Assembly: GCA_017399065.1 (NCBI GenBank)
Contig: JAFQEL010000042.1
Location: 42,867-106,866 of the forward strand
Length of the DNA stretch: 64,000 bases
Origin: Clostridia bacterium
GTDB lineage: Bacteria; Bacillota; Clostridia; Oscillospirales; Acutalibacteraceae
Reading direction: 5' to 3'
Under the pieces are notes generated by a model. That model did no database searches. It had not been told where the DNA came from and saw nothing but the letters and a program-made list of their open reading frames with translations. Positions 5,764 to 52,648 of this stretch are shown piece by piece. Position 1 is the stretch's first letter; each line of letters opens with the position of its first letter. The position numbers and the translations under genes are program-made.

Positions 5764-5788
5764 AATTTTTCTCCCTCAAAAAGAAATT

Positions 5789-6559: not shown

Positions 6560-6647
6560 AATCAGCCACCCTTTTAAAAAACTATGTATAGTTTATCAAA
6601 ACTTGTCGCAAAAGGCAAGAGAAAAAATGCATATTAATAAATTGTAA

Positions 6648-6680
6648 TAAATTAAAAAAGGTACTGTAACACAGCACCTT
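6648..6680 (-). terminator. Terminator of the EamA transporter gene
   Basis: Minus-strand stem AAGGTGCTGT/ACAGTACCTT (one G-U pair, loop GTT) followed by TTTTTTAATTT. Confidence 0.88.
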
Positions 6681-6688
6681 AAGAAAAG

Positions 6689-7609
6689 TTATTTCTTTTT
6701 ACGCTCGGGAAGATTTGTGATAATTATGGCAGCAAACATCACAACACAGCCCACAGCTTCACGCACTTCAAGCTGTTCACCTTGTACAATCCACTCGGTA
6801 AGCACAGCAAAAACAGACTCAAGGCACATAAGCAGTGACGCTACTGCAGGCTTGGTATACTTCTGACCGATAATCTGAAGCGTATAGCCTGCACCGCTGC
6901 TCATAACACCCGAATAAAGCATAGGCACAAGTGCACCTCTTATGCCTGTAAGAGTAGGTGTCTCGAAAATAAACATACATATTACTGACAGCACACCGAC
7001 TACAAAGAACTGAGAGCACGAAAGAATAACGCCATCGACTTTATCCGTAACGCTGTCGATATAAAGAATATGCACTGCAAAAAATGCGGCACAGCCAAGT
7101 GCAAGTATTTCGCCGAAGCCTATCGTAAGCGAAGAATCGACACAGAGAAGATATGCACCCGCACAGCCCATAAGCACCGCTGCCCAAACAGCAAAACGCT
7201 GCTTTTGTCTGAGAAACAGACCGAAAACAGGTACAAGAAGCATATACAGTGCCGTGATAAAGCCGATTTTACCGGAAGCCGCCTCATCGATATAATTAAA
7301 AGCAAACTGCTGAAGGTTACTTGCACAGAAAAGTATGATGCCGCAGATCAAGCCGCTTTTTGCCTGAATAAAAGCATCCTTTTTCTTCTGCTCTTTTGTG
7401 CGGGTATCGGTTTTACGCTTCCTCAGCTGCATAAAAAGTATCAGCGGAAGCAGCACTGCGGCACCCATAAGCATACGCAGACCGTTATATGTAAACGCAC
7501 CTACATGGTCCTTACCGACATCCTGTGCAACAAAGGATGCACCCCAGATAATCGCAGCAAGCAAAAGGGCGGCATTACCGCCCATAGCTTTCTTTTTACT
7601 TATCTCCAT
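6689..7609 (-). CDS. EamA/DMT family transporter
   Basis: A 306-residue membrane protein with ten predicted helices arranged as two EamA repeats. The first repeat contains AIIWGASFVAQ near the N-terminus and the second begins near LALGCAAFFAVHILYID. The family exports or imports small metabolites, and the substrate cannot be told from sequence. It follows the Gfo/Idh oxidoreductase gene by only 5 bases, and its ribosome site GGAG lies inside that gene's last codons, so the two are co-transcribed. A transporter for the oxidoreductase's sugar-like substrate or product is a reasonable guess. Confidence 0.88.
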   Translation of the reverse strand: MEISKKKAMGGNAALLLAAIIWGASFVAQDVGKDHVGAFTYNGLRMLMGAAVLLPLILFMQLRKRKTDTRTKEQKKKDAFIQAKSGLICGIILFCASNLQQFAFNYIDEAASGKIGFITALYMLLVPVFGLFLRQKQRFAVWAAVLMGCAGAYLLCVDSSLTIGFGEILALGCAAFFAVHILYIDSVTDKVDGVILSCSQFFVVGVLSVICMFIFETPTLTGIRGALVPMLYSGVMSSGAGYTLQIIGQKYTKPAVASLLMCLESVFAVLTEWIVQGEQLEVREAVGCVVMFAAIIITNLPERKKK

Positions 7610-7614
7610 AAAAA

Positions 7615-8898
7615 TTAAAACTCCATTGGTTTACTGCCGTTTTCGCGTGACTTATCGGCAAGGAAAACGGTTTTATGACCTGCTACCGAATCAAAAATTG
7701 ACGTACAGGAAACAGACGGCTTGCCGCCACTGACATAATTTACAAAGTCCTCGGCAATGCCGATATCACCGCCGCCGTGACCGCCGCCCTCTTCGAATGC
7801 AGAAAGGTCGATAACGTCTTCGTCATATTCCTTATCCGGGTCGGGATTGATTGTGAGCACATGAATATCGTTATTTTCAAACTCGCCGAAAATTTCGCCC
7901 TTTGTGCCGACAATTTCAATTCTTCTCATCGGTCTTGCGGCACCGGCAATCATATTGTGCGTGCCCGTTGCACCGCTTTCGAAGTTGACCATAACGCTCT
8001 GGTGGTCAACAACATCGTTACCGCTCTTATAAATACACTTACCATAGGGACTGTCACCCTTGAGAAGATTGATTTTATCTTCAATAGTGGCATTCTCCAT
8101 ATCCTCAAGAGCCGACCAGACGTAGAACTCCCACCTATCGGGATGGTCGATATAAATACGCTTTGCGGAATAAAGGCAGGAATTGACGTGAGGGCAGTCA
8201 ACAAGGCACTTTGTGCCCGCACCCTCGGGAGCCATTTCCGGCTTGAACTGGAATATTGAGCCGCAGCTTGAAACGGTTTTGGGCTTTGTTTCACTCATCA
8301 TCCACATCATTATATCGAGATCGTGACAGCACTTTGCAAGAAGCATAGATGTTTTGCACTCTTCGGTTCTACCCCATTTACCTCTGACATAAGATGTTGA
8401 AGCGTGGTGGTAGCTGACGTGCTCAAATGTATTGATGCTGATTATATCGCCAATTTCACCTGCAAGCAGACGCTCCTTGATAGCAAGGTAAAAAGGAGTA
8501 TAGCGGAGCACGTGGCAAATCATAACCTTATTGCCGTATTCCTCAACGGCAGCAACAAGCTTTTCAAGCTCATCAATATTAACGGCAAAAGGCTTTTCGA
8601 GAAGCATATCGTAACCTGCTTTAAGCAAGGGAAGAGCTGTTTCAACGTGCTGGTGATCCATTGTACCGTTTATTACAGCATCCGCAAACTTCGGCACAGC
8701 CGCAAGCTCCTCAGCACTCGAGAAACAATTTTCTTTCGGGAAGCCGAACATTTTACGTGCCTTTTCACATCTGAAGGGATTGGGATCGGCAACGCCGACA
8801 ATCCTGAGCTTATCGGGTGATTTAAGAGCAAGCTCGGCATAAGTGAAGGCACGGTGGCCTCCGCCGACGATAATTGCCGTTACGGGTTTTGCACACAT
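7615..8898 (-). CDS. Gfo/Idh/MocA family oxidoreductase
   Basis: A 427-residue NAD(P)-dependent dehydrogenase acting on sugars, inositols or amino-sugar derivatives. It has an N-terminal Rossmann fold (IIVGGGHRAFTYA, 9-21), the catalytic EKP motif (101-103), and a C-terminal alpha/beta domain with HDLDIMMWM, where the His is the usual proton donor. A cysteine cluster (KCLVDCPHVNSC) in the middle is a notable extra and could bind a metal. The start is ATG at 8898. It has its own promoter and forms a two-gene unit with the EamA transporter. Confidence 0.92.
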   Translation of the reverse strand: MCAKPVTAIIVGGGHRAFTYAELALKSPDKLRIVGVADPNPFRCEKARKMFGFPKENCFSSAEELAAVPKFADAVINGTMDHQHVETALPLLKAGYDMLLEKPFAVNIDELEKLVAAVEEYGNKVMICHVLRYTPFYLAIKERLLAGEIGDIISINTFEHVSYHHASTSYVRGKWGRTEECKTSMLLAKCCHDLDIMMWMMSETKPKTVSSCGSIFQFKPEMAPEGAGTKCLVDCPHVNSCLYSAKRIYIDHPDRWEFYVWSALEDMENATIEDKINLLKGDSPYGKCIYKSGNDVVDHQSVMVNFESGATGTHNMIAGAARPMRRIEIVGTKGEIFGEFENNDIHVLTINPDPDKEYDEDVIDLSAFEEGGGHGGGDIGIAEDFVNYVSGGKPSVSCTSIFDSVAGHKTVFLADKSRENGSKPMEF

Positions 8899-8935
8899 AA
8901 AATAAGACCTCTAATCATAAAAAACATACAAGGAA

Positions 8936-8963
8936 ATAATATCATAATAGCAGAATTAGTCAA
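8936..8963 (-). promoter_or_regulatory. Promoter of Gfo/Idh-EamA unit
   Basis: Minus-strand TTGACT (8958-8963), 16 bases, TATTAT (8936-8941). Confidence 0.65.
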
Positions 8964-8971
8964 GAAGAAAA

Positions 8972-9005
8972 CATAAAAAAACAGCCAAGACTTTCGTCTT
9001 GGCTG
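8972..9005 (-). terminator. Terminator of secG
   Basis: Perfect stem CAGCCAAGAC/GTCTTGGCTG with a 4-base loop, followed on the minus strand by seven T residues. Confidence 0.93.
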
Positions 9006-9020
9006 AATGTTTGAGCTAAA

Positions 9021-9269
9021 TCAGAAAATTGTGGTGATAACCTTTGCAGCAAAAGCAATTACGAAGAAGCCGATACCTACAATCTTTGTAAGCTTGACAA
9101 GCTTAGCTTCCATTGTACGACCCTTATTCTTACCGAAGAATGTCTCTGCACCGCCGGCAATAGTACCGGAAAGGCCCTGAGAGTTACCCTCCTGAAGAAG
9201 AACAAGAGCTGAAATTGCAATAGCAAGAACAATAAGAACTACACCGAAAACTATTTCATACCATACCAT
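9021..9269 (-). CDS. secG: Preprotein translocase subunit SecG
   Basis: An 82-residue SecG, the small accessory subunit of the SecYEG channel. It has two membrane helices (about 5-25 and 60-80) separated by the conserved hairpin LLQEGNSQGLSGTIAGGAETFFGKNKGRT, which is diagnostic. It is transcribed alone from a promoter about 90 bases upstream. In many Clostridia secG precedes rnr and smpB, but here its own terminator follows immediately. Confidence 0.96.
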   Translation of the reverse strand: MVWYEIVFGVVLIVLAIAISALVLLQEGNSQGLSGTIAGGAETFFGKNKGRTMEAKLVKLTKIVGIGFFVIAFAAKVITTIF

Positions 9270-9356
9270 AATAATTCACCTTAACGCCTGCCCTAAAGCA
9301 AGTCTGTTACCCTTTCTTTTGAAAAATATATACAATTTCCGTTTTTATACTCGAGT

Positions 9357-9385
9357 ATTCTACCATATAGTTTTTCATTTTGCAA
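9357..9385 (-). promoter_or_regulatory. Promoter of secG
   Basis: Minus-strand TTGCAA (9380-9385), 17 bases, TAGAAT (9357-9362). A 12-bp palindrome ATACTCGAGTAT (9347-9358) overlaps the -10 and start point. Confidence 0.68.
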
Positions 9386-9555
9386 TAGTTTTTTAAAAAA
9401 ACTACAGATATTAAGGAAAAAATTTCAACGCATACTGAAAAACTCATAGGTAAAAATACTGTAGACGGACAAAGAACGTAAAAAGTCAATGCGTTTGCTG
9501 CGTGCTTTCTCCGTCGGCTGTTAACGGCGGGGAAGCCTGCATTAACAGTTACATA
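9386..9555. other. Intergenic stretch after the topoisomerase genes
   Basis: No gene is recognisable. It contains an AT palindrome (TAGTTTTTTAAAAAAACTA near 9387-9405) and a weak dyad CTGTTAA/TTAACAG around 9520-9548, just past the topoisomerase A stop. No U-rich tract follows, so it is not a clear terminator. Confidence 0.4.
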
Positions 9556-11793
9556 TTATATAAGAGTCATCTGCTCGCCGCTGTCCTCTGCGCTGAGCAG
9601 AGCACCGGTAGACGGTAGATTCTTGGTGCGGTAACGGTAAGGCTTGGCAAACTCGCCATCCGTATATGGTCTGACGGTCATAAGTCGCTGACCCTTCTTA
9701 AGTGTAAACACTGCAACGCCCTGCGTATCCTTTGCTGCCTTTGAAGAAATTGCGGCAGTATTGAAAAGCAGATGTCTGCCTGCACTTGAAATCAGAACAA
9801 GCTCTGTATCCTGCGTGATATACAATGCTGCAACAAGCGGTGATTTATCGCTGTAAGCTTTGATGAGCTTCTTACGGTTGGTCTTTGTTGCATAGGCTGA
9901 CATATCAACCTTTGCAACCTTACCGTTTTCGAAGAAGAACATCATATGACCGTTATACTCTTTGAGCAGAGCCATATATGCTACTGTTTCCTCAGGCTCC
10001 ATATCGAGCTTTGAGGGCACGTATTCACCGAGCACACTTGCCTTTGTGAACTCAAAGTCATCAGCCTTAGCCTTATAAACCTGCTGTTTGTTGGTAAAGA
10101 AAAGCAGTTCGACATCGTTGGTCGTGTCGTAGGTTGCGATGATTTCGTCGTTTTCCTTTACCTTCTGCTCGCCGCTCATACGCAGTGAAAGAGGTGTGAT
10201 TTTCTTGAAATATCCTTCACGCGAAAGGAAGAGATGAACAGGTTCATTGGAAACAGGCTCTTCAGCCTCAGCCTCTGCAATCTCAGCCTGATAGATAATC
10301 TCACTTCTGCGGGGCTTGCCGAACTTTTTGACTACATTCTGAAGCTCTGCAATAATTATCTTCTTTACACGCTGACGCTTTTCAAGAATCTCTTCAAGGT
10401 CTTTGATTGTATCCTTGAGGCTTTCAATATCCTTGGTATGTTTAAGGATATACTCACGGTTGAGGTGACGGAGCTTGATTTCCGCAACATACTCAGCCTG
10501 AATCTCATCAATACCGAAGCCGATCATAAGGTTTGTGACAACCTCTTTTTCTTCCTCGGTGTTGCGGATTATCTTTATAGCCTTATCGATATCGAGAAGT
10601 ATCTTCTGCAGACCCTCCAACAGATGCAGTCTGCTGCGGCACTTCTGAAGCTCAAAGAAAGTTCTTCTGCGCACACAGCCCGTACGGAAAGCGATCCACT
10701 CGGTAAGCAGCTGTTTTACACCGAGCACCTGAGGCATACCTGCAATAAGGACATTGAAATTGCAGGAGAACGTATCCTCCATGGGAGTCTGCTTATAAAG
10801 CTTGAGCATAAGCTTATCCGGGTCAGTGCCGCGCTTGAGGTCGATCGTAATCTTGAGACCGTTCTTGTCGGTTTCGTCACGCACGTCGCTGATTTCTTTG
10901 AGTGAGCCTGCCTTGAATTTTTCAATAATTTTATCTATTATAGCTTCCGCTGTAGTTGTAGGCGGAATTTCGTATATATCAATACAGTTATTTGATTTAT
11001 CGTAATTATATTTTGCTCTTACCTTGATACTGCCACGGCCGTTGTTGATGACATTCATCATCTCGTCGCGGTTGTAGATTATCTGACCGCCGCCGATAAA
11101 ATCCGGAGCTTTTATGATTTCGGAAACATCGTAATCGGGGTCTTTGATAAGCTCGATTGTTGTGTTGCAGATTTCCTCAAGGTTGAATGAGCAGATTGAG
11201 CTTGCCATACCGACAGCAATACCTGTATTTGCGTTGACAAGTACACTCGGGAAAGATACGGGAAGAAGAGTAGGCTCCTTCATTGTACTATCATAGTTAT
11301 CGACAAAGTCAACTGTATCCTTATCAATATCACCGAAAAGCTCGGAGCATATAGACTCAAGCTTTGCCTCGGTATAACGGGATGCAGCCCACATCATATC
11401 ACGTGAGTAAGCCTTACCGAAGTTACCCTTGGAATCGACAAGCGGATGAAGCAGAGCCTCATAGCCGCGTGAAAGACGCACCATTGTATCGTAAATAGCA
11501 GCATCGCCGTGGGGATTGAGCTGCATTGTACGGCCGACAATGTTTGCCGACTTTACTCGGGAGCCGTTCAGCAGACCCATTTTATACATTGTATAAAGGA
11601 GCTTACGGTGAGCAGGCTTGAGACCGTCGATTTCGGGAATCGCACGGGACATAATAACACTCATCGCATAGGGCATATAGTTGACCTCAAGCGTATCGGT
11701 AATACGCTGATTTACAACTTCGCCAGCACCTATAATATGTGCATTGGGGTTGATATCGTACTTCGGCTTTTTATCGACTTTCTTTTTTGCCAT
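9556..11793 (-). CDS. Type IIA DNA topoisomerase subunit A (divergent GyrA/ParC)
   Basis: The DNA cleavage/rejoining subunit of a type IIA topoisomerase, 745 residues. The winged-helix domain has NPHGDAAIYDTMVR (93-106) and the catalytic Tyr140 in AASRYTEAK. A coiled-coil arm follows (about 365-470), then a shortened C-terminal beta-propeller region (about 520-720). No GyrA-box of the QRRGGKG type is visible, which argues for a decatenase (ParC-like) rather than a gyrase. The residue equivalent to E. coli GyrA Ser83 is Ala98, while Asp87 is kept (Asp102). The partner B subunit ends 18 bases upstream. This is probably a second topoisomerase beside the usual gyrase, which is not in the window. 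Confidence 0.9.
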   Translation of the reverse strand: MAKKKVDKKPKYDINPNAHIIGAGEVVNQRITDTLEVNYMPYAMSVIMSRAIPEIDGLKPAHRKLLYTMYKMGLLNGSRVKSANIVGRTMQLNPHGDAAIYDTMVRLSRGYEALLHPLVDSKGNFGKAYSRDMMWAASRYTEAKLESICSELFGDIDKDTVDFVDNYDSTMKEPTLLPVSFPSVLVNANTGIAVGMASSICSFNLEEICNTTIELIKDPDYDVSEIIKAPDFIGGGQIIYNRDEMMNVINNGRGSIKVRAKYNYDKSNNCIDIYEIPPTTTAEAIIDKIIEKFKAGSLKEISDVRDETDKNGLKITIDLKRGTDPDKLMLKLYKQTPMEDTFSCNFNVLIAGMPQVLGVKQLLTEWIAFRTGCVRRRTFFELQKCRSRLHLLEGLQKILLDIDKAIKIIRNTEEEKEVVTNLMIGFGIDEIQAEYVAEIKLRHLNREYILKHTKDIESLKDTIKDLEEILEKRQRVKKIIIAELQNVVKKFGKPRRSEIIYQAEIAEAEAEEPVSNEPVHLFLSREGYFKKITPLSLRMSGEQKVKENDEIIATYDTTNDVELLFFTNKQQVYKAKADDFEFTKASVLGEYVPSKLDMEPEETVAYMALLKEYNGHMMFFFENGKVAKVDMSAYATKTNRKKLIKAYSDKSPLVAALYITQDTELVLISSAGRHLLFNTAAISSKAAKDTQGVAVFTLKKGQRLMTVRPYTDGEFAKPYRYRTKNLPSTGALLSAEDSGEQMTLI

Positions 11794-11811
11794 TTAATAT
11801 CTCCCCCTTTC

Positions 11812-13797
11812 TCAGCTTACATCGGCCATATCGATATAGAGGTGGCCGTTTTCTGCAATATACTGTTTTCTGCCTGCAAGGTTATCGCCAAGCAGCAGGT
11901 CGAATTTTTCTGCCATAGCCTCAGCAAAATCAGGCTCTATTTTGATAAGGCGGCGGGTTGCGGGATTCATAGTGGTAAGCCACATCATATCCGCATCGTT
12001 TTCACCGAGACCCTTTGAACGCTGAATGGTGAACTTTTTACCCTCAAGCTCGGCAAGCACGTCTGCCTTTTCTTTTTCGGTATAGGCAAACCACGTTTCA
12101 TCTTTATAGGATATTTCGTAGAGCGGTGACTCGGCAATAAACACATAGCCCTCTTCAATAAGAGTAGGCATAAGGCGGTAAATCATAGTGAGAATAAGAG
12201 TTCTGATCTGAAAGCCGTCGACATCGGCATCGGTACAGATAATAACTTTATTCCATCTGAGGTTATCAAGATTAAAAGTAGCAAGGTCCTTTGCATGCTT
12301 ACCTTTCGCCTCGATACCGCAGCCGAGGACTTTGATAAGGTCGGTTATGATATCGCTCTTAAAAATCTTGTCGTACTCGGATTTGAGACAGTTGAGAATC
12401 TTACCTCTGACGGGAATGATTGCCTGAAACTCCGAATCACGCGACTGCTTACAGGCACCCAAAGCAGAGTCACCCTCAACGATAAACAGCTCGCGCATAC
12501 TTACATCGCGGCTTCTGCAGTCAACAAACTTCTGCACTCTGTTTGCCATATCGTTACTGCTCTGCAGATTCTTCTTGATTGTCTGTCTTGTTGTTTCAGC
12601 CTTGACACGGCTGCGCATATTGATAAGCACCTGATCGCAGATCTTTTCTGCCTCGAGCTTATTTTCGATAAAATATATTTCAAGCTGTTTACGCAGGAAA
12701 TCAGTCATAGCCTCCTGAATAAACTTGTTGTTAATTGCCTTTTTCGTCTGATTTTCGTATGAGGTCTGTGTTGAGAAAGATGAAATGACAAGTATCAGAC
12801 AGTCCTCAACATCCTGAAAGCTGATTTTGGAATCGGCCTTTGTGTATTTATTATTCTGCTTAAGGTAAGCATCAATCTGCGAAACGAACGCACTTCTTGC
12901 CGCTTTATCGGGAGCACCGCCGTATTCAAGCCAGCTTGAATTGTGATAGTACTCTTTAAGCTGAGATTTGTTTGAAAAACGGAGTGCAACATTTATTTTA
13001 AGCTTATAATCCTTCTGGTCAGCTCTGTCACGGCCTACACGCTCTGCAGTCCAGAGCTGTGTCTGACTGAGTGCACCGTCGCCGCCGATTTCGTCAACGT
13101 AATCCTTAATACCGTTTTCATAAAGATATTCGTACGTTTCAAACGAATTGGTGTTACCCTTCTGATTACGTAGCACGAAACGCACGCCGGGATTTACAAT
13201 AGACTGGCGTTTGAGCGTAGACTGAAAATATTCGAGAGATACGGCAATATCGGTAAAAACCTCAAGGTCGGGCTTCCAGCGGATACGCGTACCCGTATCC
13301 CTCTTGGTGTACTCTTCTTTAAGCATTTTGCCTGCAGGCTTACCTTTTTTGAACTTGAGCTCGTAACGGTAGCCGCCGGTTTTGATTTCTGCCGCCATAT
13401 ATTCGGAAGCATACTGAGTAGAGCAAAGACCCAGACCGTTTAGACCGAGCGAATATTCGTAACTGCCGCCGTCGTTGGTATCGTACTTACCGCCTGCATA
13501 AAGTTCACAGAATACAAGCTCCCAGTTAAATTTCTTCTCCTTGGGGTTGTAATCTACAGGAATACCTCTGCCGAAATCCTGCACCTCAACAGAGCCATCC
13601 GAAAAGCGGGTGACTATAATCTTATCGCCATGACCTTCACGGGCTTCGTCGATTGAGTTTGAGATAATTTCAAAAATAGAATGCTCACAGCCCTCAATAC
13701 CATCGGAGCCGAATATAACGGCAGGACGCAGACGCACACGGTCGGCACCCTTGAGGGTTTTTATGCTTTCTACTCCGTATTCTGCTTTTTTCGGCAT
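11812..13797 (-). CDS. Type IIA DNA topoisomerase subunit B (divergent GyrB/ParE)
   Basis: The ATPase subunit paired with the A subunit just downstream, 661 residues. It has GHKL ATPase motifs (SNSIDEA, Asn47; QDFGRGIP, 73-80; YSLGLNGLGL, 115-124), the lysine loop QTK (350-352) and the TOPRIM motifs EGDSALG (Glu441) and DADVD (523-527), then RSKGLGEND near the C-terminus where gyrases have YKGLGEM. All catalytic residues are present. The protein is clearly divergent: it lacks the usual SGGLHGVG phrase and carries GLNGLGL instead. It follows ftsH in the operon, with a hairpin in the gap. Confidence 0.9.
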   Translation of the reverse strand: MPKKAEYGVESIKTLKGADRVRLRPAVIFGSDGIEGCEHSIFEIISNSIDEAREGHGDKIIVTRFSDGSVEVQDFGRGIPVDYNPKEKKFNWELVFCELYAGGKYDTNDGGSYEYSLGLNGLGLCSTQYASEYMAAEIKTGGYRYELKFKKGKPAGKMLKEEYTKRDTGTRIRWKPDLEVFTDIAVSLEYFQSTLKRQSIVNPGVRFVLRNQKGNTNSFETYEYLYENGIKDYVDEIGGDGALSQTQLWTAERVGRDRADQKDYKLKINVALRFSNKSQLKEYYHNSSWLEYGGAPDKAARSAFVSQIDAYLKQNNKYTKADSKISFQDVEDCLILVISSFSTQTSYENQTKKAINNKFIQEAMTDFLRKQLEIYFIENKLEAEKICDQVLINMRSRVKAETTRQTIKKNLQSSNDMANRVQKFVDCRSRDVSMRELFIVEGDSALGACKQSRDSEFQAIIPVRGKILNCLKSEYDKIFKSDIITDLIKVLGCGIEAKGKHAKDLATFNLDNLRWNKVIICTDADVDGFQIRTLILTMIYRLMPTLIEEGYVFIAESPLYEISYKDETWFAYTEKEKADVLAELEGKKFTIQRSKGLGENDADMMWLTTMNPATRRLIKIEPDFAEAMAEKFDLLLGDNLAGRKQYIAENGHLYIDMADVS

Positions 13798-13824
13798 TTG
13801 TTTTACCTCTCTTTAATACCACAG

Positions 13825-13856
13825 TTTGCCGACACAGCTTAAGCAGTGCCGGCAAA
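13825..13856 (-). other. Hairpin between ftsH and topoisomerase B genes
   Basis: Minus-strand dyad TTTGCCGGCAC / GTGTCGGCAAA (one G-U pair), with a nested AGCTTAAGC centre. No T-tract follows, so it is more likely an RNA processing or stability element than a terminator. Confidence 0.55.
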
Positions 13857-13865
13857 TTGTAAGTT

Positions 13866-15782
13866 TTATTCTTCTGTTTCTTCGGGGGCTTCCGTTGCAG
13901 TGGCGTCTTCCGCCTGCTCTTCTGACTGAGAAGCACCGGTCATAATAGCCTTGAAGGTCTCTCCGCTCATCTTCTCATGCTCGATGAGATACTGAGCAAC
14001 AGCGTGAAGCTTATCGATATCGGTTGTAAGAATATCCTCACAGCGTTTGTAAGCACCTGTGATGATTGAATTCATCTCGGTATCGATTGAGCTTGCAACC
14101 TTCTCGGAGTAGTTACGTGTCTGTCCGTAATCTCTGCCGAGGAATACCTCGTTGTGACCTGAGGTGAAAGAAATCGGACCGAGCTCGTCGCTCATACCGT
14201 ACTTTGTAATCATACCTCTTGCAATCTCGGTTGCACGCTGAATATCGTTAGAAGCACCCGTTGAGATATCACCGAGAACAATAGCCTCCGCAACACGTCC
14301 GCCAAGGAGCGTAACGAGATTGTCAAGCATATCATTCTTGGTTGTATAGCTCTTATCCTCAGTGGGAATTGACATTGTATAACCGCCTGCCATACCTCTG
14401 GGAATAATGGAGATTTCGTGAACGGGATCCTGCGACTCGAGGTTGAAGGTAGCAACTGCGTGACCTGCCTCGTGGTAGGCTGTGAGCTTCTTCTCCTTAT
14501 CGGTCATCTTATGAGACTTCTTCTCTGTACCGACAACAACCTTGACGGTCGCCTCTTCGATCTCCTTCATTGTGATAGCCTTTTTATTCTGCCTTGCGGC
14601 AAGAAGAGCAGCTTCGTTGAGAAGGTTTTCGAGGTCGGCACCCGTAAAGCCTGCTGTAGATCGGGCAATAACACCAAGGTCCACATCGGGAGCAAGGGGC
14701 TTGCCCTTTGAGTGTACTTTAAGAACAGCCTCTCTGCCCTTCTGGTCGGGATAGTTGACCGTAACCTGACGGTCAAATCTGCCGGGACGGAGAAGAGCCG
14801 GGTCAAGGATATCGGGGCGGTTGGTTGCGGCAATAATGATAACACCCTCGTTTGCACCGAAGCCGTCCATCTCAACAAGGAGCTGGTTAAGAGTCTGCTC
14901 ACGCTCATCGTGACCGCCGCCCATACCTGCACCTCTGTGACGGCCGACAGCATCAATTTCATCAATAAATATAATAGCGGGAGAATTCTTCTTTGCCTGG
15001 TCGAAAAGGTCACGCACACGTGAAGCACCGACACCGACATACATTTCGACAAAGTCTGAACCCGAAATTGAGAAGAAAGGAACATCCGCCTCACCTGCTA
15101 CAGCACGTGCAAGCAGAGTTTTACCAGTACCGGGAGGGCCTACAAGAAGCACACCCTTGGGAATTCTTGCACCGAGGTCATTGAACTTAGCCGGATCCTT
15201 GAGGAAATCAACAATTTCTGCAAGCTCTTCCTTCTCTTCGTCAGCACCTGCAACGTCCTCAAAGGTTGCCTTACGCTTTTCATCCTTGGCATTTTTGATT
15301 CGTGCCTTACCGAAGCTGAGCGTTTTGTTTGTTTCGTTATTAAAGCTCTGACCCATACGGCGGACCATAAGGAACATTACAACGCCGAGCACGACCATTA
15401 GCAACACGGTCGGCAAAACGTTGAGCACCCACGAATTCTCACCGCCGCGCTCATAGTCGTATTTGATGGGCGTATCGGGATTGGTCTTGTTATACTCGGA
15501 AACAAGAGGATGGATATCGTTGACAAAAATCTGAACGTTGGGCACGGTATACTTCTGTGCCACGTCATTATCCTTCTCCTTGTATACAAGGGCACCCGAG
15601 CTGAGATTGAGACTGTACTCGGTAACGTTGCCTGCTTCAAACTTGGCAACAATCTCATAGTACTGCGTCTTTGTGCTCGGTGTAGACGAGCTGACGAAGT
15701 AAAACGCAATACCCATAATAAGCAGAGGTACGGCAATATATATAAGAGCCGTCCTCAGCTTTCTTTTTTTGTTTGCATCCAT
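13866..15782 (-). CDS. ftsH: ATP-dependent zinc metalloprotease FtsH
   Basis: A membrane-anchored AAA+ protease that degrades unassembled or damaged membrane proteins, 638 residues. It has two membrane helices (about 11-30 and 118-140) around an extracellular domain, Walker A GPPGTGKT (215-222), Walker B IIFIDEID (270-277), a second region of homology ([19 protein letters not shown]) and the zinc site HEAGH (437-441). The C-terminus is acidic ([18 protein letters not shown]). It lies 29 bases downstream of tilS, the classic tilS-ftsH pairing, although hpt, which often lies between them, is absent. Confidence 0.98.
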
Positions 15783-39622: not shown

Positions 39623-40963
39623 TTATATCTCGTAACTTATGAGTTTTTGTGCCTGTTCAAGGCTTTCTTTCACCTTACAAGCAACTAAAGCTGTTAAAAC
39701 TGCGCCGTATGCAGCCTCTTCACGGTGGAGCGGAATCTGCATTTCAGCACCGAGCGCCGCGGAAAAACGCTTCTGAAGCGGAACATTCTTACGCAGACCG
39801 TTACCCGAGCCGACAAGTGACGTTGCCTTAAAGCCCGTAGGCTCAATCATTTCGATAATCTCGCTGACCATTCCGCCGAGGAAACCGTTCATCAGAGCAA
39901 CGGGAGTAAAATTATCAATACCGAGATTATTTATACTACCGCGTACCATGGGGTCAGACCTTGTACCGCTGAGCTTAGTAGAAACAGTAAGAGAATCGGT
40001 ATCATCTGCCGACTCAAGTGCGGCATCCATATACTTGTAGATACTGCCGTCACACTCGCAGCCTGCCATTGCAAGACAGCTCTTGAAGAAATCCGCAAGC
40101 ACTGCAAATGCTCTGCCGCCGCAGAGTGAACAGCCGACAAGTATATTCTTACCCGAACACAGCGGTCTTATTTCCATATTATCGGGAGCTTTTTTTAGGT
40201 CGGTAAGCACCGATATCTGACCGCCCGTACCCATATTTACAAGGGCACAGCCCTCCATATCACGCACAGAGCCTATAAAGCTTGCCTGATTGTCGCCTAT
40301 TGCAACACATACGGGCACACCGTTATATTCACCTACCGCATCAAAATCGCAGGTAACATCGGGAAAGAAGCTGAAATCCATACCCGCTTTTTCTATCGCT
40401 TCTTTATCAAAGCAGCCGTTTTCAATATCGAAAATGCCGAATGATGCGGCATCGGATGAATGAGTCAAGGGAGATTTTCTTCCTGTGAGCACCATTGAGG
40501 CATAGTCGTGTATTGTACAGAATTTAACTGCAGACTCGGGCACGAGGTTATTTTTGCTGTGATAATAATACGTTGTACCACCAAATCCGCTTGCTGTATT
40601 ATAGCCCGTAATATCCGACAAAACGGATGCATAAGTGCCGTTTTGATACGGCTGATTGCCGCTCTCATCCTGCCATGTATAGAGCGGGCTGACCGCCTTA
40701 CCCTCTGCATCAATATAAACTATACCGTGCATCTGACCGGTAATACCTACAGCACACACGGGCGAAAACTCATTGAAAAGCTGAGCCGCAAGTGACGTAA
40801 CCTTGCTGATTATTGCATCGGGTGACTGTATTTTTTCAAAGGGCTTACCGTCGATAAAGCTGTCATTATCGAGCGTAACTGATTTGAGCAGTTTGCCCGA
40901 CTCGGCATCAACTGCAATACCGCAGATTGTTGTAGTGCCTATATCAAGACCGATAACGTTCAT
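39623..40963 (-). CDS. FGGY-family carbohydrate kinase
   Basis: A 446-residue sugar kinase of the ASKHA fold. The phosphate-1 motif is GLDIGTTTICG (5-15), followed by GITGQMHGI (about 73-81), YTWQDESG, and the adenosine-site ALVNMGTGGQISV. The TWQD phrase and HDYASMVLTG resemble sedoheptulokinase and xylulokinase relatives, so a keto-sugar substrate is likely, but I cannot fix which. The start is the ATG at 40963 (MNVIGLD). It lies 10 bases after the glycyl radical enzyme gene, so kinase and radical enzyme probably act in one pathway. Confidence 0.88.
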   Translation of the reverse strand: MNVIGLDIGTTTICGIAVDAESGKLLKSVTLDNDSFIDGKPFEKIQSPDAIISKVTSLAAQLFNEFSPVCAVGITGQMHGIVYIDAEGKAVSPLYTWQDESGNQPYQNGTYASVLSDITGYNTASGFGGTTYYYHSKNNLVPESAVKFCTIHDYASMVLTGRKSPLTHSSDAASFGIFDIENGCFDKEAIEKAGMDFSFFPDVTCDFDAVGEYNGVPVCVAIGDNQASFIGSVRDMEGCALVNMGTGGQISVLTDLKKAPDNMEIRPLCSGKNILVGCSLCGGRAFAVLADFFKSCLAMAGCECDGSIYKYMDAALESADDTDSLTVSTKLSGTRSDPMVRGSINNLGIDNFTPVALMNGFLGGMVSEIIEMIEPTGFKATSLVGSGNGLRKNVPLQKRFSAALGAEMQIPLHREEAAYGAVLTALVACKVKESLEQAQKLISYEI

Positions 40964-40973
40964 ATTCTCACCC

Positions 40974-43349
40974 TCAGATTTTTGTTGATTCAAGGTCAAG
41001 ACGGGTAATGATATCGTTCTGGATAGCCGGTGAAAGGTCAAGGAAGTTTACAAATGTGCCGTGGATTCTCATAATGTAAACACCGCTCGGAGCATACTTT
41101 TCAGGCTCTGCGAGCACTTTACGGAGAGTATCGGGAGTAGTGATATTGAAGTAGAGATAAGAGGGAGAAAGGTTTTCGTTTTTCTCGTTAAAGAAGATAG
41201 GCTTAAGCACCTTATCACGGAATTCTACGCCCTTTTCCTCATAATCGGCACCCTTGAAATATTTGGGGTCGATACCGAGATGTGAAGCGTAACCGCCGTT
41301 GAATTTGCCGTAGGGCAGCTTCATAGCGGAAAGCGTACGGAAGCCGAGACCGTTGCCTGCCTCGCCGTATAGAGGGTCTGTACCGTAGCCGAGCATATCT
41401 CTTGCACCTCTGCCGTCGGGTGTAGCACCTACCCAGTAGCCGTAGAGAAGATGAGTTGACGGGCTGGACCAGTCAGCACGGAAGGGATTGCCGAGATAGT
41501 TTTTCTGTGAACGTACGATATCTGAAATCCTGTTTGCAATTTCTGCAGCCTCGTTATCGACCGATTCAATACCGTTACCGAATTTCGGAGCAGACTTGAG
41601 GAACTCGCGAAGCTCCTCATAGCCCTCAAAGTTGACTTTAAGTGCTTCAATCAGCTTGTCACAGTCCTGAGGACGCTCTTCAAGCAGCTTATCGATTGCG
41701 ATAAACGAATCGGCAATAACGGAAAGGCCGTGGATAAGACAGCCGCTGCCGTTATACTTTGTACCCTGCTTTTCGGGGTGACGTGTGTCAATACCGCTTT
41801 CGCAGCCGCCCATAAACGCACTGAGGAAGGGCACGCGAAGATGTGAAAGTGCAACGGAAGCACCGTTTGCGGCATCAGCCATAAGGCTTGCATAAACCTC
41901 GGCATTCTTATAGAAAGCAGTACGGATATTCTTAAGAAGTTCTTTACTGCTCGGATAATCAACGAAAGTGCCGATTTTTTCGCCTGTGATTGTAGAGTTG
42001 CCGCTATTGAGTGTAAGTTCAAGAATCTTGGGCAGGTTAAACCAGCTGTTTGTTGTGTTGCCGTTATCCTTACCCATTATAAGCGGCTCCTGACAGCCTG
42101 CTACGGAGTAATCGGGCAGGTCGCAAGCCTCAACACCGCTTTCACGGAGCACCTCAAACACAGTATCATCATTGAAGAATGACGGAGTGAGCACACCGGG
42201 TGTAAACATAAACTTACCGATTTCACGGTAGAGCTTTTCGGGTGTATTTTTATGAAGCTTGACAGAGAGAATGGGCTGAGGCAGATTCATATCGTAGTAT
42301 GCATCCATAATAGCGTAGCTCATCTCGCTTGTAAGGTCATTGCCCTCAACATCTCTGCCGCCGACAAGCACGTTCTGTGAAATTGCCCAGCTTCTGTCAC
42401 CGACATTGAAGAATACAAGGAAGTGACGGAAGAGCTCTGCGGCCTCTTCACGTGTTTCACCCGACATTGCTCTGTAGGGCTCGAAAATTCTGTCAGCATT
42501 ACCGACTGAGAAAGCAAAGGGATTGGGAGCCTGCTCAAGAGTCATAACCTCCCAGAGAATGAGGAATGACTGGATTGCTTCGTAAAGTGACTCTGCACCG
42601 TTTGCAGGCACCTTACGGAGTGTCTTCTCCATAAGCTCAAGCTGAGCGGCACGCTCGGGTGAAGCTGTTTCCTTCTGTTTTGCGGCAATATCAGCGTAAC
42701 GGTTAGCAAGAGTAACTGTAGCCTCAAGCACCATTCTGATATCCTCGAGAGTATCCTTACGCTCATCGTTCTTTTCACTGTTGATTTTCTTTGTAAGGTC
42801 GGAAATTATCTTGTTAAGACCAACAGAAAGAGCTTTGCGGAAATCGGGAATAAGGTGACCTGTTACCTGCTCGATAAAAAAGGCAACCTCACCTGTATAT
42901 TTTGCGTATTTCTCATAAACCGCACTCAGGTCACGGACATAGTCGCCGCGCTTTGTACGCTCACGCATTGTGTCAATACGCTCCTGAGTAAACTCCTCGT
43001 TTGCCTCAATATCGCCGAAAACAGCTGTCGGGTCGCAGTAGCCCGAGAAGGTTTCGACCTGAAAAGCAGGGTTGATAAGAGCGTAGCTTCTTGCAAAAGA
43101 GTCGCTCTGTGTACCAGCAAATACGTTGTTGTCGCTGATTGAAAGCGGAAGCTTTTCGAGAATCATCTTAAGCTCACGTGCGGCACGAAGCTCTTCGCTC
43201 ATACCGTTTTTGCCAAAGCCCGTTGCTTTATATGCAAGCTCACGTGAAAGGAACCAACCGTCGAGCCTTTTTTTAGCTCTCTCCTCACGGAATAGATCCT
43301 TCGCCATCTTTGTTATTTCGCCTTTAGCGTATACATTTTTTACTGACAT
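40974..43349 (-). CDS. Glycyl radical enzyme of unassigned function (PFL-like)
   Basis: A 791-residue glycyl radical enzyme. The thiyl Cys419 and base Glu421 sit in AGCQEP, the C-x-E layout of eliminases and lyases rather than the double Cys of pyruvate formate-lyase. The C-terminal radical domain is recognisable (NITTPDTLRKVLAEPEKY), with Gly764 in MRIHGTFVNF. The usual loop is RVxG(Y/F/W); here it is RIHGT, while the rest of the signature (L, Q777, I780, R783) is kept. I recognise no specific reaction. The adjacent activase and sugar kinase suggest a sugar or polyol-derived substrate. Confidence 0.88.
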   Translation of the reverse strand: MSVKNVYAKGEITKMAKDLFREERAKKRLDGWFLSRELAYKATGFGKNGMSEELRAARELKMILEKLPLSISDNNVFAGTQSDSFARSYALINPAFQVETFSGYCDPTAVFGDIEANEEFTQERIDTMRERTKRGDYVRDLSAVYEKYAKYTGEVAFFIEQVTGHLIPDFRKALSVGLNKIISDLTKKINSEKNDERKDTLEDIRMVLEATVTLANRYADIAAKQKETASPERAAQLELMEKTLRKVPANGAESLYEAIQSFLILWEVMTLEQAPNPFAFSVGNADRIFEPYRAMSGETREEAAELFRHFLVFFNVGDRSWAISQNVLVGGRDVEGNDLTSEMSYAIMDAYYDMNLPQPILSVKLHKNTPEKLYREIGKFMFTPGVLTPSFFNDDTVFEVLRESGVEACDLPDYSVAGCQEPLIMGKDNGNTTNSWFNLPKILELTLNSGNSTITGEKIGTFVDYPSSKELLKNIRTAFYKNAEVYASLMADAANGASVALSHLRVPFLSAFMGGCESGIDTRHPEKQGTKYNGSGCLIHGLSVIADSFIAIDKLLEERPQDCDKLIEALKVNFEGYEELREFLKSAPKFGNGIESVDNEAAEIANRISDIVRSQKNYLGNPFRADWSSPSTHLLYGYWVGATPDGRGARDMLGYGTDPLYGEAGNGLGFRTLSAMKLPYGKFNGGYASHLGIDPKYFKGADYEEKGVEFRDKVLKPIFFNEKNENLSPSYLYFNITTPDTLRKVLAEPEKYAPSGVYIMRIHGTFVNFLDLSPAIQNDIITRLDLESTKI

Positions 43350-43366
43350 AATATGTAATCCCCCAT

Positions 43367-44077
43367 TCAGGTTCTGACTAATTTAATTGAATTATTTTTA
43401 AGTATATTACAAAACTCATCAAACTGAGCTTCGCTTACAAATGCATCCTGCATTGTGTAGCTCATACCGTTCTGTTCCCATTTGTCCTTACCGTACTCGT
43501 GGTAGCTGAGCACCTCGAGAGCAAAGCCATCCTTTGTCATAAAGGGTATCAACGCTTCTGCAAATCCTTCGGCATCCGACTTATCGGCATTGAAGCCGTT
43601 GATAAGCGGAATACGCAGGAGAAGCTGATTGCGAAGCTCAGAAGCCGCCTTGATATTGGCTATAACGGTTTCGTTGCCTACACCCGTATATTCTTTAAGC
43701 TTTTTACTGTCATAGTGCTTGAAATCCATAATCAGAAAATCAACAAGCTCAAACAGCTCAGGCAAGCGAGGATTTGTGCCGTTTGTTTCTATTGCGGTGC
43801 TGATACCTTTTTCTTTAAGAAGCACAAGCAGCTCCTTAAGTGCATCAAACTGCAGTGTCGGCTCGCCACCCGTAAAGGTGACTCCCCCACCGTCAAAAAA
43901 CATAGGCTCAGCGGCAACGATCTGCTTTGACATATCCTCAATGGGCATACCGCCTTCTTTGGCAATCTTCATACTCTCGGGGTTTGAGCACCACGGGCAG
44001 TGAAGATTGCACCCCTGCAGGTGATAAACCAGGCGGTTACCCGGACCGTCTTGCGAATAGTTAAAGCCCTTGTGCAA
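43367..44077 (-). CDS. Glycyl radical enzyme activating enzyme (radical SAM)
   Basis: A radical SAM protein that installs the glycyl radical on the neighbouring enzyme. The [4Fe-4S] motif is CNLHCPWC (Cys23, Cys27, Cys30), followed by TFTGGEP. At about 236 residues it has no ferredoxin-like insert, like PFL activase and unlike most other activases. The start is problematic. The TTG at 44077 is 19 bases from the good AGAGGTGG site, whereas a rare ATT at 44086 is 10 bases from it and would give MNVLHKGFNYS. No ATG or GTG lies in frame. It is the first gene of the operon. Confidence 0.9.
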   Translation of the reverse strand: MHKGFNYSQDGPGNRLVYHLQGCNLHCPWCSNPESMKIAKEGGMPIEDMSKQIVAAEPMFFDGGGVTFTGGEPTLQFDALKELLVLLKEKGISTAIETNGTNPRLPELFELVDFLIMDFKHYDSKKLKEYTGVGNETVIANIKAASELRNQLLLRIPLINGFNADKSDAEGFAEALIPFMTKDGFALEVLSYHEYGKDKWEQNGMSYTMQDAFVSEAQFDEFCNILKNNSIKLVRT

Positions 44078-44109
44078 AACGTTAATATCCGTAAAACCAC
44101 CTCTTCCAC

Positions 44110-50611: not shown

Positions 50612-52648
50612 TCAGTTTCCGAAGGTTGAGCTCATATCGCTCTGAACGGCCTCTCGTGTAACCTTGACAAATTTCGAGCCTGCTATCTTATCCTGAAGAA
50701 GCTTAAAATAAAGCCCCTTATCAATAGGCAGTTCGACAGTCTTATCAAGCCAGCTTGAAAGGTGTGCACAGTTGGAAATTGTAAGGCCGTTGATGCCTTC
50801 TTCACCTCTGCCGACAAGGTCGCCGCCGCGAAGGATATTATCGCCGAACTGTGTCATTACCTGAACATGCTGTGACCACGGTGCAGGATCGGGAGTTATT
50901 GTATATTTTGTTGTGTCGATTCTGCCGAAGCCCTCACCTGCTGTATCGCAGAATTCCTGGCAGGACTGAGCAAGCTCAATAACCTCAAGCTTATTGTTCA
51001 TACAAACAATCTTTGCCTTATCAAGTGTGATCTCGAGGCGGTTTGTGCCGGGGAAGTCACCCGTTGTGGTGATAAATACACCTGTTGCACCGTTGGGATA
51101 ATCAACGTAAATCGTAACGTCATCCTCAACCTCAATTTTGTGCCACTTGCCCTCGTGAAGGAAGCCGCGAACCTTGCAGGGCATACCGCACAGCCACTGC
51201 CAGAGGTCGAGCTGATGGGGACACTGGTTGAGAAGAACACCGCCGCCTTCACCTGACCAGGTTGCACGCCAGTCACCCGAATCGTAGTAGGACTGAGTTC
51301 TGTACCAGTCTGTTATAATCCAGTTTACGCGCTTTATCTCACCGTACTGACCGCTCTGAAGCATCTCACGAAGCTTGATATAGCAAGGATTTGTGCGCTG
51401 GTTGAACATAATTGCAAATGACTTGTCGCTCTTTGCGGCAACCTCATTCATCTCTTCAACCTGCTTTGTGTATACACCTGCGGGCTTTTCAATCATAACG
51501 TGAAGACCTGCGTTAAGGCCCTCAATAGCGTATGTAGGATGCAGATAGTGGGGTGTTGCAACAAGAATTGCATCAACCTCTCCGGATGCAATAAGCTCAC
51601 TGCCGTCGTTATATACCTTAACATTCGGGAACATCTCGAGAGCAACCTTACGGCGTGATTCCTTAAGGTCAGCCACAGCGGTAAGCTCAAACTCCGGCAT
51701 ACAGCCTGCAAGCATATTCTGCATATGGCTTGTACCCATATTACCGCAGCCGATGATGCCAAGGCGGATACTGCCCTTTGAAAGAGACTCAAGTATCTCT
51801 TTAAGAGCGTTTACGGCTGCATCAAAAGATTCATCGGAATTTGCATAAACATAGCTCTTTTTCTTTTCAATGGATTTAATCGTACCGTTGTCGGGTTCAA
51901 GGTCTTTGAGACCGTCAAATACAGTAAGATGAGGCTCGAGTGAAAGGAACTTCTCGCCGCCGTTACGTGCAAAACGCTTGATGATCTCGGCAACGCTGCC
52001 GTCGCCCTTGCCTGCAGGTACGACCTCACCGTTTTCAAAGTAAGCATCCTTGACGTGGAGATATTTTACAAAGCCTGCTACTTTTTCGTAAGCTGCAAGC
52101 GGATCGACACCGCACTGTATGTAGTTTGCAGGGTCAACGATTGCATAGAGGTTGGGAGCACAGTATCGGAGAACTTCGAGGTTTCTGTCATCAGTGTCGC
52201 CATAGATTTCCTTCTCGTTTTCAAGGCAGCAGTAGATACCCTGCTCAGCCGAATAGTCTGCAAGAGCCTTTACTCTGCGGAGCACCTCTTCACGGTTGTC
52301 CTCATAGCTCTGACCCTTTGTGAAGAAGAAACTGAACATACGGATATATTTTGTTTCGAGTATCTTTGCAACCTCAACAGTGTTCTTGAACTTTTCAAAA
52401 TGAGACTCAAAATCATCGTCGATCTCAATCTTACCGAATGGAGAGCCGATTGAAGAAACCTTGATGCCCTCTGCATCAAGCTTTTCTTTGAGAACCTTTG
52501 CCTCTTCTACAGTGAAGTCGGAAATATTTTTGCCGTTGATACCTCTGGGCTCAAAGTAAGACATACCGTTACGCTTGAGTGCCGCAATCTGACCGTCAAG
52601 GTCCTTTGCAGCTTCATCGGCAAAGCCTGAGAGAATAAAATTCAACAT
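50612..52648 (-). CDS. Fusion of sugar isomerase/epimerase and Gfo/Idh/MocA oxidoreductase
   Basis: A 678-residue two-enzyme fusion. Residues 1-265 form an AP-endonuclease-2-type TIM barrel with likely metal ligands Glu143, Asp172, His198 and Glu238, as in xylose-isomerase-like epimerases. After a linker (about 266-293), residues 294-678 form an NAD(P)-dependent Gfo/Idh oxidoreductase with GIIGCGNMG (297-305), EKPA (387-390) and the catalytic His in NQCPHQLDLWQWL. Both halves keep their active-site residues, so the protein may oxidise and then isomerise a keto-sugar or inositol. The frame is open throughout, so this is a true fusion rather than read-through. Confidence 0.9.
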   Translation of the reverse strand: MLNFILSGFADEAAKDLDGQIAALKRNGMSYFEPRGINGKNISDFTVEEAKVLKEKLDAEGIKVSSIGSPFGKIEIDDDFESHFEKFKNTVEVAKILETKYIRMFSFFFTKGQSYEDNREEVLRRVKALADYSAEQGIYCCLENEKEIYGDTDDRNLEVLRYCAPNLYAIVDPANYIQCGVDPLAAYEKVAGFVKYLHVKDAYFENGEVVPAGKGDGSVAEIIKRFARNGGEKFLSLEPHLTVFDGLKDLEPDNGTIKSIEKKKSYVYANSDESFDAAVNALKEILESLSKGSIRLGIIGCGNMGTSHMQNMLAGCMPEFELTAVADLKESRRKVALEMFPNVKVYNDGSELIASGEVDAILVATPHYLHPTYAIEGLNAGLHVMIEKPAGVYTKQVEEMNEVAAKSDKSFAIMFNQRTNPCYIKLREMLQSGQYGEIKRVNWIITDWYRTQSYYDSGDWRATWSGEGGGVLLNQCPHQLDLWQWLCGMPCKVRGFLHEGKWHKIEVEDDVTIYVDYPNGATGVFITTTGDFPGTNRLEITLDKAKIVCMNNKLEVIELAQSCQEFCDTAGEGFGRIDTTKYTITPDPAPWSQHVQVMTQFGDNILRGGDLVGRGEEGINGLTISNCAHLSSWLDKTVELPIDKGLYFKLLQDKIAGSKFVKVTREAVQSDMSSTFGN

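Follow-up and report, generated by a model that had tools for sequence, protein, structure and literature searches.

A discrete family of predicted glycyl radical enzymes with a non-canonical radical loop, encoded beside a ketose-type FGGY kinase in Clostridia

A large share of anaerobic metabolism in the gut depends on glycyl radical enzymes (GREs), which act on choline, taurine-derived isethionate, hydroxyproline and diols, among others. A 64,000-nucleotide stretch of contig JAFQEL010000042.1 from a Clostridia bacterium (the window) carries on its minus strand, in the order of transcription, open reading frames (ORFs) for a GRE-activating radical SAM enzyme (activase), a 791-residue GRE homologue with an unusual radical loop, and an FGGY-type sugar kinase, and raises the question of what such a radical enzyme does beside such a kinase. 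The initial annotation had the positions and spacing of the three genes right, including the 10 bases between the GRE stop codon and the kinase start (ATG at 40963; Table 1). By its sequence, the GRE belongs to a discrete new family inside the known GRE superfamily, and this family probably initiates an anaerobic sugar-degrading route not described before, in many, largely animal-gut Clostridia.

The loop of the window GRE breaks the motif RVxG[FWY], given as the GRE fingerprint in passages of PMC11528403. Despite the missing fingerprint we assign the protein to the GRE superfamily because it has the PFL-like barrel fold of that superfamily (Pfam PFL-like match, 380 bits), because its invariant Gly764 aligns with the catalytic Gly of other GREs, and because an activase gene accompanies it. 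The loop reads RIHGTF, and the Cys loop GCQEP, in 121/121 proteins (the query and the best 120 of 3398 scored hits, 67-96% identical); RIHGT and GCQEP likewise occur in 81/81 genomic copies, comprising the window and the 80 closest of 227 genome_contigs stretches that encode relatives at E 0.001, with a stop codon in 0/81 matches (counts taken from the tblastn match alone). Across 61 aligned members, R761, I762, H763, G764 and T765 are each invariant. The RIHGT loop around Gly764 was thus correctly read at first, but "degenerate" was the wrong description of it, because it is invariant in the family; and the departures go further, to extra residues before the loop (YAPSGVYIMRIHGTF, compared with, for example, YRNLVIRVAGYSA in canonical GREs) and to a YLYFN strand, which in 6/8 compared GREs (PflD, YbiW, HypD-type and others) is of the HIQFN type. 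In other GRE eliminases the beta-1 strand provides substrate contacts, according to passages of PMC8473560. Sequencing or assembly error in the loop is ruled out by its identity in the 121 proteins and 81 genomic copies. The CxE motif of GRE eliminases, whose role is described in parts of PMC7077986 and PMC8473560, is present as CQE in all of these proteins and copies, at the Cys419 and Glu421 originally named as the active site, and His165 aligns with a His of glycerol dehydratase (GD). The window GRE matched no Pfam or NCBIfam glycyl-radical-domain model at E 0.001; 10/10 other GREs scanned against NCBIfam matched GrcA/spare-glycyl models. Signature-based GRE searches would miss the family, because its fingerprint is broken and the window copy leaves the NCBIfam glycyl-domain models unmatched.

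The deviating loop and the unmatched domain models could also be taken to mean that the protein is a non-catalytic relative that forms no radical. We regard this as highly improbable: Gly764, Cys419, Glu421 and the loop are invariant, an activase gene adjoins the GRE gene in 80/81 copies (the exception is L013), and relatives in which Ala, Ser or Thr replaces the Gly still carry a radical, according to passages of PMC11528403. A pseudo-enzyme was rejected on the strength of the invariant residues and the activase gene.

The GRE clusters with no characterised class that could be tested, an outcome in favour of the initial annotation. In an 85-row tree the family is a single clade with support 1.000 and a stem of 1.46 substitutions per site; the node joining it to its nearest neighbours has support of only 0.117. 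(Row L160_div, in the wrong frame, was disregarded, L126, L143 and L144 were excluded as a fragment or duplicates, and the tree contains two identical row pairs.) In an alignment of 79 GREs, from 78 of the 80 closest loci and the window, the minimum identity is 63%. In an even sample of 291 genomes of the window's class, its own included, 15 carry a family member (in two pieces each in G102, G008 and G277, and as a contig-edge fragment only in G126), with matched stretches 51-77% and full-length members 63-68% identical; the best non-family GRE is 32% identical, where "best other" here and in the later 291-genome comparisons means best among the matches listed. Every matching curated class model falls far under its cut-off: the best, HpsG, gives 202 bits against 1000, the models for CutC, HypD, HpsG/HpfG, indoleacetate decarboxylase and hydroxyphenylacetate decarboxylase give 46.6-202 bits against 1000-1150, and on the general model TIGR01774 the protein scores 257 bits (cut-off 678); as a check of scale, L089 exceeds the HypD NCBIfam cut-off. 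Pyruvate formate-lyase was rejected, since the protein has GCQEP in place of an adjacent Cys-Cys and scores 56 bits on TIGR01255 (cut-off 994). Many of the 80 closest relatives, from the GTDB species collection, are, to judge by their titles, metagenome-assembled genomes (MAGs) from ruminant and deer guts.

The window activase scores 73.9 bits on Radical_SAM (Pfam) and 175.9 bits on TIGR02494 (cut-off 174.35), carries the motif CNLHCPWC (CX3CX2C) and has no ferredoxin-like insert: the distance from CX3CX2C to GGE is 38 residues, compared with 84-87 in nine insert-bearing relatives and 69 and 97 in Escherichia coli PflC and YbiY. The short type without a ferredoxin insert, first described for this gene, thus holds for the window copy but not for the family as a whole, where it is the commonest form and not universal (at most 50 residues in 62/75 measured activases). 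About 45 additional residues follow CX3CX2C in 9/75 activases (L016, L026, L048, L073 and five further loci), and the four such inserts looked at are Cys-rich. Within 44077-44100 there is no in-frame ATG or GTG upstream of TTG 44077, the codons being ATT-AAC-GTT-TTG, which suggests a start at TTG 44077 or at the ATT nine bases upstream.

The kinase is a regular companion of the GRE and is not limited to this genome, which again favours the initial annotation. With neighbours called from tblastn matches above 80 bits on the same strand, a kinase lies at most 1.4 kb downstream of the GRE in 76/81 copies; of 70 GRE-kinase pairs, 45 are spaced by 0-27 bases, 21 overlap (taking the first start codon) and four are spaced by 54-162 bases. 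Genome-wide, the kinase subfamily occurs in 30/291 genomes, namely 14/15 with the GRE versus 16/276 others (p = 8e-15); its members are 36-49% identical to the window kinase, and the other FGGY kinases among the matches listed at most 32%. This and later p values are guides only, because the genomes are not independent samples; the locus and class-genome samples also overlap, since some genomes are in both (L051 has the same sequence as G080, and L072 the same regulator as G237). An adjacent kinase is missing from 5/81 copies (L024, L025, L028, L038 and L069), two of which, L028 (52%) and L069 (43%), have a subfamily kinase elsewhere in the genome with one in-frame stop in each match. According to one alternative, the GRE acts on a non-sugar and the kinase is linked to it only through shared regulation or a common polymer source, and the flanking genes outside the core do differ between genomes; GRE and kinase, however, stay adjacent across many such flanks and co-occur genome-wide with the p value just given, and we consider this alternative improbable.

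The window kinase scores 74.9 bits on FGGY_N (cut-off 28.8) and 21.6 on FGGY_C, below its 27; it gives 116 bits on the xylulokinase model against a cut-off of 380, and all nine matching NCBIfam models stay below cut-off. P0198, 51% identical to it, is called sedoheptulokinase in two sources. We examined 15 of the 16 sites at which the kinase subfamily occurs in a GRE-less genome, over 4.5-19 kb each. QMHG is kept at 15/15 of these sites, none has the isomerase-like gene described below, and at 6/15 the kinase is fused to or adjoins fructofuranosidase-family genes. In G128 the kinase and a GH32 domain form a single protein (L206:6863-9976) inside a GH32-rich cluster; in G238 a GH32 gene adjoins the kinase; and in G061, G114, G203 and G161 genes of one cluster, DUF2961 by Pfam (one member scanned), lie directly 5' of the kinase. 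Passages of PMC8605356 equate DUF2961 with GH172, a family whose founding member has alpha-D-fructofuranosides and alpha-D-arabinofuranosides as substrates. A split transketolase pair lies near the kinase in G084, and the other sites have no recognisable fructoside gene (for example, GH67 in G125 and GH5 in G235). Together these sites suggest that the kinase substrate is a ketose, in the simplest case a ketohexose.

In the reading that we favour, and whose chances we hold to be about even, the GRE is an eliminase acting on a hexose derivative that carries no phosphate; it would cleave a C-O bond there, and the FGGY kinase would then phosphorylate the resulting ketohexose. In this reading the activase would make a radical on Gly764, the radical would move to Cys419, the Cys419 thiyl radical would abstract a hydrogen from a carbinol carbon, Glu421 would remove the hydroxyl proton, and the adjacent C-O bond would cleave to give a ketone and a reduced neighbouring carbon. 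The kinase is predicted to phosphorylate the far end of the ketose, the phosphorylated product to enter glycolysis directly or via a transaldolase- or aldolase-type enzyme, and a dedicated phosphomannose isomerase (PMI)-like enzyme, encoded with roughly half of the copies, to connect aldose and ketose forms. The initial suggestion for this operon, radical chemistry on a sugar in combination with phosphorylation, stays a proposal, now supported by the kinase contexts (GH32, GH172), by GH38 and by an aldolase-family gene in one operon. A fuller version, which we put forward tentatively and rate somewhat short of even, is that GREs of a new class, with a non-canonical loop, carry out the first known radical cleavage of a C-O bond in a hexose derivative that bears no phosphate. 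The ketohexose-type product would pass to an FGGY kinase dedicated to it and, in half of the lineages, to a PMI-like isomerase that is likewise dedicated, and the whole would constitute a second "radical glycolysis" of gut and rumen Clostridia that is distant in sequence from YbiW and PflD. The tight link to the kinase makes the question of what the many uncharacterised gut GREs do a testable one, with few hexose derivatives, one kinase and one assay.

A PMI-like gene lies at most 4 kb downstream in 45/81 copies, all of them among the 72/81 copies with at least 2.7 kb of downstream sequence; L065 has one on the opposite strand, and the window site has none 3' of the kinase. In Sporanaerobium hydrogeniformans XHS1971 (L034), a ROK regulator, activase, GRE, kinase and PMI-like gene are consecutive. 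The PMI-like protein has MPI cupin and PMI_typeI_cat domains and scores 96.8 bits against a cut-off of 116.2; QxHP and EP[TS]D are present in 45/45 each, and YRxY, which we take to be the usual motif of class I mannose-6-phosphate isomerase, is missing in 43/45. The subfamily (52-54% identical to the L023 protein) occurs in 8/15 GRE genomes versus 1/276 (p = 5e-11), the lone GRE-less carrier, G248, having neither the family's GRE nor its kinase in an assembly that is 78% complete; among the matches listed from the sampled genomes, the gene that scores next best has 38% identity. The window's own genome lacks an operon-type copy and has only a 38% relative, which adjoins an IolE-like gene, and another PMI. 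A PMI-like paralogue of that genome (L146; G000:C12, about 103.4-104.5 kb) encodes 363 residues, is up to 41% identical to the operon type, and adjoins IolE-like and PHP-like genes (names given by eye). Glycosidase genes also join the operon. Those of the GH38 type border it directly in L046, L051, L054 and L063 (the GREs of L046, L054 and L063 are mutually 85-87% identical), G079 has one inserted between its GRE and kinase genes, and in G080 a fusion of GH38 and aldo/keto reductase domains (L236:5835-9230) lies directly 3' of the GRE operon; GH38 occurs in 11/15 GRE genomes versus 90/276 others (p = 0.002). In L038 a GH32 gene lies upstream of the activase and a different FGGY kinase heads the operon, and in L055 a GH43/GH32-like gene precedes the activase.

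The order of the two steps and the identity of the substrate can be weighed against these data. YbiW and PflD reportedly cleave 1,5-anhydrohexitol 6-phosphates, and by analogy the kinase could come first, phosphorylating a sugar or anhydro-sugar that the GRE would then cleave as the phosphorylated compound. The window GRE, however, is just 23% and 26% identical to YbiW and PflD and stands in a separate clade, and the kinase has ketose-kinase motifs and keeps fructosidase-family company at 6/15 GRE-less sites; we find this order rather doubtful. In one specific version of the eliminase-first reading, which we judge doubtful, a 1,5-anhydrohexitol or hexitol would yield 1-deoxy-D-fructose, to be phosphorylated afterwards: a YbiW/PflD-type route with the kinase and radical steps exchanged, which we take to be the E. 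coli "anhydroglycolysis" in another order. This version is supported by the type of the kinase and by the operon of G276, with the order activase, GRE, TIGR00875 gene, kinase, beta-lactamase-family gene, PMI-like gene and ROK-cluster regulator, in which the TIGR00875 (fructose-6-phosphate aldolase (FSA) family) match gives 297 bits against a cut-off of 246. GldA-like genes gave no tblastn match in the 80 loci or the later stretches.

Several observations weigh against the eliminase-first reading, some of them against its 1-deoxyfructose version. The G276 aldolase has Glu and Phe at the positions of FsaA Gln and Tyr; positions 59 and 131, which presumably separate transaldolase from FSA, carry transaldolase-type residues there. 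No FSA-family gene neighbours the operon in any of the 80 loci, and one does so in 1/4 further stretches (L237, G276). What weakens the 1-deoxyfructose version is that the window's own genome lacks a TIGR00875 match and that GRE genomes show no enrichment for this family (6/15 versus 131/276, p = 0.61). Nor does the GRE-genome specificity of the PMI-like subfamily suit it, as such an enzyme cannot act on a 1-deoxyketose at C1. L024, L025 and L038 have activase and GRE, and searches of their genomes gave only FGGY kinases of 26-28% identity; the four GH172 sites all belong to one genus; and the kinase substrate may also be a heptulose. The flanks outside the core vary by lineage; no non-core gene cluster exceeds 14/81 loci, so the operon has neither a transporter nor a dehydrogenase as a regular companion. 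Model confidence is low in the loop region (block predicted local distance difference test score, pLDDT, 61). Finally, GD His281, Ser282 and Asp447, which we take to bind glycerol, correspond to Phe278, Ala279 and Thr433 in the window GRE; because these positions are changed, the substrate is probably different from that of GD.

The PMI-like gene, GH38 and the absent aldolase are better fitted by a further alternative than by the 1-deoxyfructose version. Here the hexose itself would be the group that leaves. By radical elimination the GRE would split a glycosyl-polyol, for example of the mannosyl- or fructosyl-glycerol type, and the PMI-like enzyme and kinase would turn the mannose or fructose so released into fructose 6-phosphate. 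It would explain why the window genome needs no TIGR00875 aldolase, why the PMI-like subfamily is almost specific to GRE genomes, why GH38 joins the operon with the enrichment given above, and why the same kinase subfamily accompanies fructosidase-family genes where the GRE is missing. Yet we know of no GRE, and hence no precedent, with a sugar as leaving group, no constant neighbour would handle the aldehyde by-product (the limit of 14/81 loci applies here too), and the GH38 enrichment may stem from shared lineages; on balance we consider this alternative unlikely.

Table 1. Features of the three-gene operon in the window
Feature	Position	Strand	Evidence
GRE-activating radical SAM enzyme (activase), 236 residues from TTG 44077	43367..44077	-	Pfam, NCBIfam, ORF
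Glycyl radical enzyme homologue, 791 residues (P0001)	40974..43349	-	ORF, Pfam, alignments, predicted structure
His165, aligned with His164 of glycerol dehydratase	42855..42857	-	Alignments
Cys loop CxE, Cys419/Glu421, GCQEP	42087..42095	-	121/121 close proteins, 81/81 genomic copies
Radical loop RIHGT, residues 761-765, Gly764; family-invariant	41055..41069	-	Sequence, alignments
FGGY ketose-type kinase, 446 residues, QMHG and GDNQAS motifs	39623..40963	-	ORF, Pfam, NCBIfam

Elsewhere in the window, positions 50612-52648 encode a 678-residue fusion of a xylose-isomerase-like TIM barrel and a Gfo/Idh/MocA dehydrogenase; in L003 and L004, two close loci, a 678-residue gene also lies 5' of the operon. 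Other GREs occur in the same samples. Downstream of the family operon, L029 carries a second FGGY kinase (L029:14735-16306) and then a second, different GRE (L029:16589-18364), truncated by the end of the locus and 23% identical to the window's; GRE-FGGY kinase pairs may thus occur in more than one GRE clade. A GRE group with GCYEP and an R(L/V)CGWN loop, found in L156, L161, L165 and L168 (class genomes G071, G276, G043 and G012), forms one clade with L170 (support 1.000). Five successive GRE matches lie on contig C69 of G102 (4531-15708), and some genomes of the window's class have up to ten.

The operon PMI-like gene shares its domains and QxHP with class I mannose-6-phosphate isomerase but falls below the cut-off, has EP[TS]D and mostly lacks YRxY. 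The window kinase resembles xylulokinase and sedoheptulokinase in its QMHG and GDN motifs, and differs from them in scoring below the model cut-offs and forming a subfamily of its own. In structural alignment the window GRE is 24-27% identical to glycerol and 1,2-propanediol dehydratase (PDB 1r8w, 9rco, 5i2a). These B12-independent enzymes have the loop RVAGY, whereas the window GRE has RIHGT and extra preceding residues, and, unlike them, it neighbours a sugar kinase. Among the papers listed from the open-licence PMC literature, none describes a GRE system with an FGGY kinase, sedoheptulokinase, fructokinase or RIHGT, an absence that carries little weight.

Passages of PMC11528403 describe aminoacyl radical enzymes, GRE homologues in which Ala, Ser or Thr stands at the position of the Gly; many come from gut MAGs, and they keep the Cys and the activase. 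Like them, the window family breaks RVxG[FWY] and keeps Cys and activase; unlike them, it keeps Gly764 and instead changes V to I, has His at x and has Thr for the aromatic residue. Membership among these enzymes (ARE/SRE/TRE) was rejected because Gly764 is kept in 121/121 proteins and 81/81 copies. The aminoacyl radical enzymes have varied gene contexts in the same passages of PMC11528403, whereas the neighbourhood of the window family is conserved, and that paper's main text has no word starting with "kinase" or "sugar".

YbiW and PflD are also among the closest known systems. An orthologue of either was rejected at 23-26% identity, in a separate clade and with 196 bits against 1109 on PRK09983. 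The YbiW/PflD pathway is said to have been published by Ma et al. (JACS, 2024). The initial statement that no named pathway joins the three genes needs a qualifier: sugar-phosphate-binding GREs are already known, because structures exist, by their PDB titles, of E. coli YbiW with 1,5-anhydroglucitol 6-phosphate and of Streptococcus PflD with 1,5-anhydromannitol 6-phosphate (8id7, 8id0, 8yjo). Unlike YbiW and PflD, the window family has an adjoining FGGY kinase, and no family operon examined other than that of G276 has an aldolase gene. Like them, it is a GRE with CxE; E. coli ybiW and pflD lie near fsaA and fsaB, and one family member, in G276, has a fructose-6-phosphate aldolase-family gene nearby. 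The sugar-type ligands of YbiW and PflD would be a further likeness, given the sugar substrate proposed for the window GRE family.

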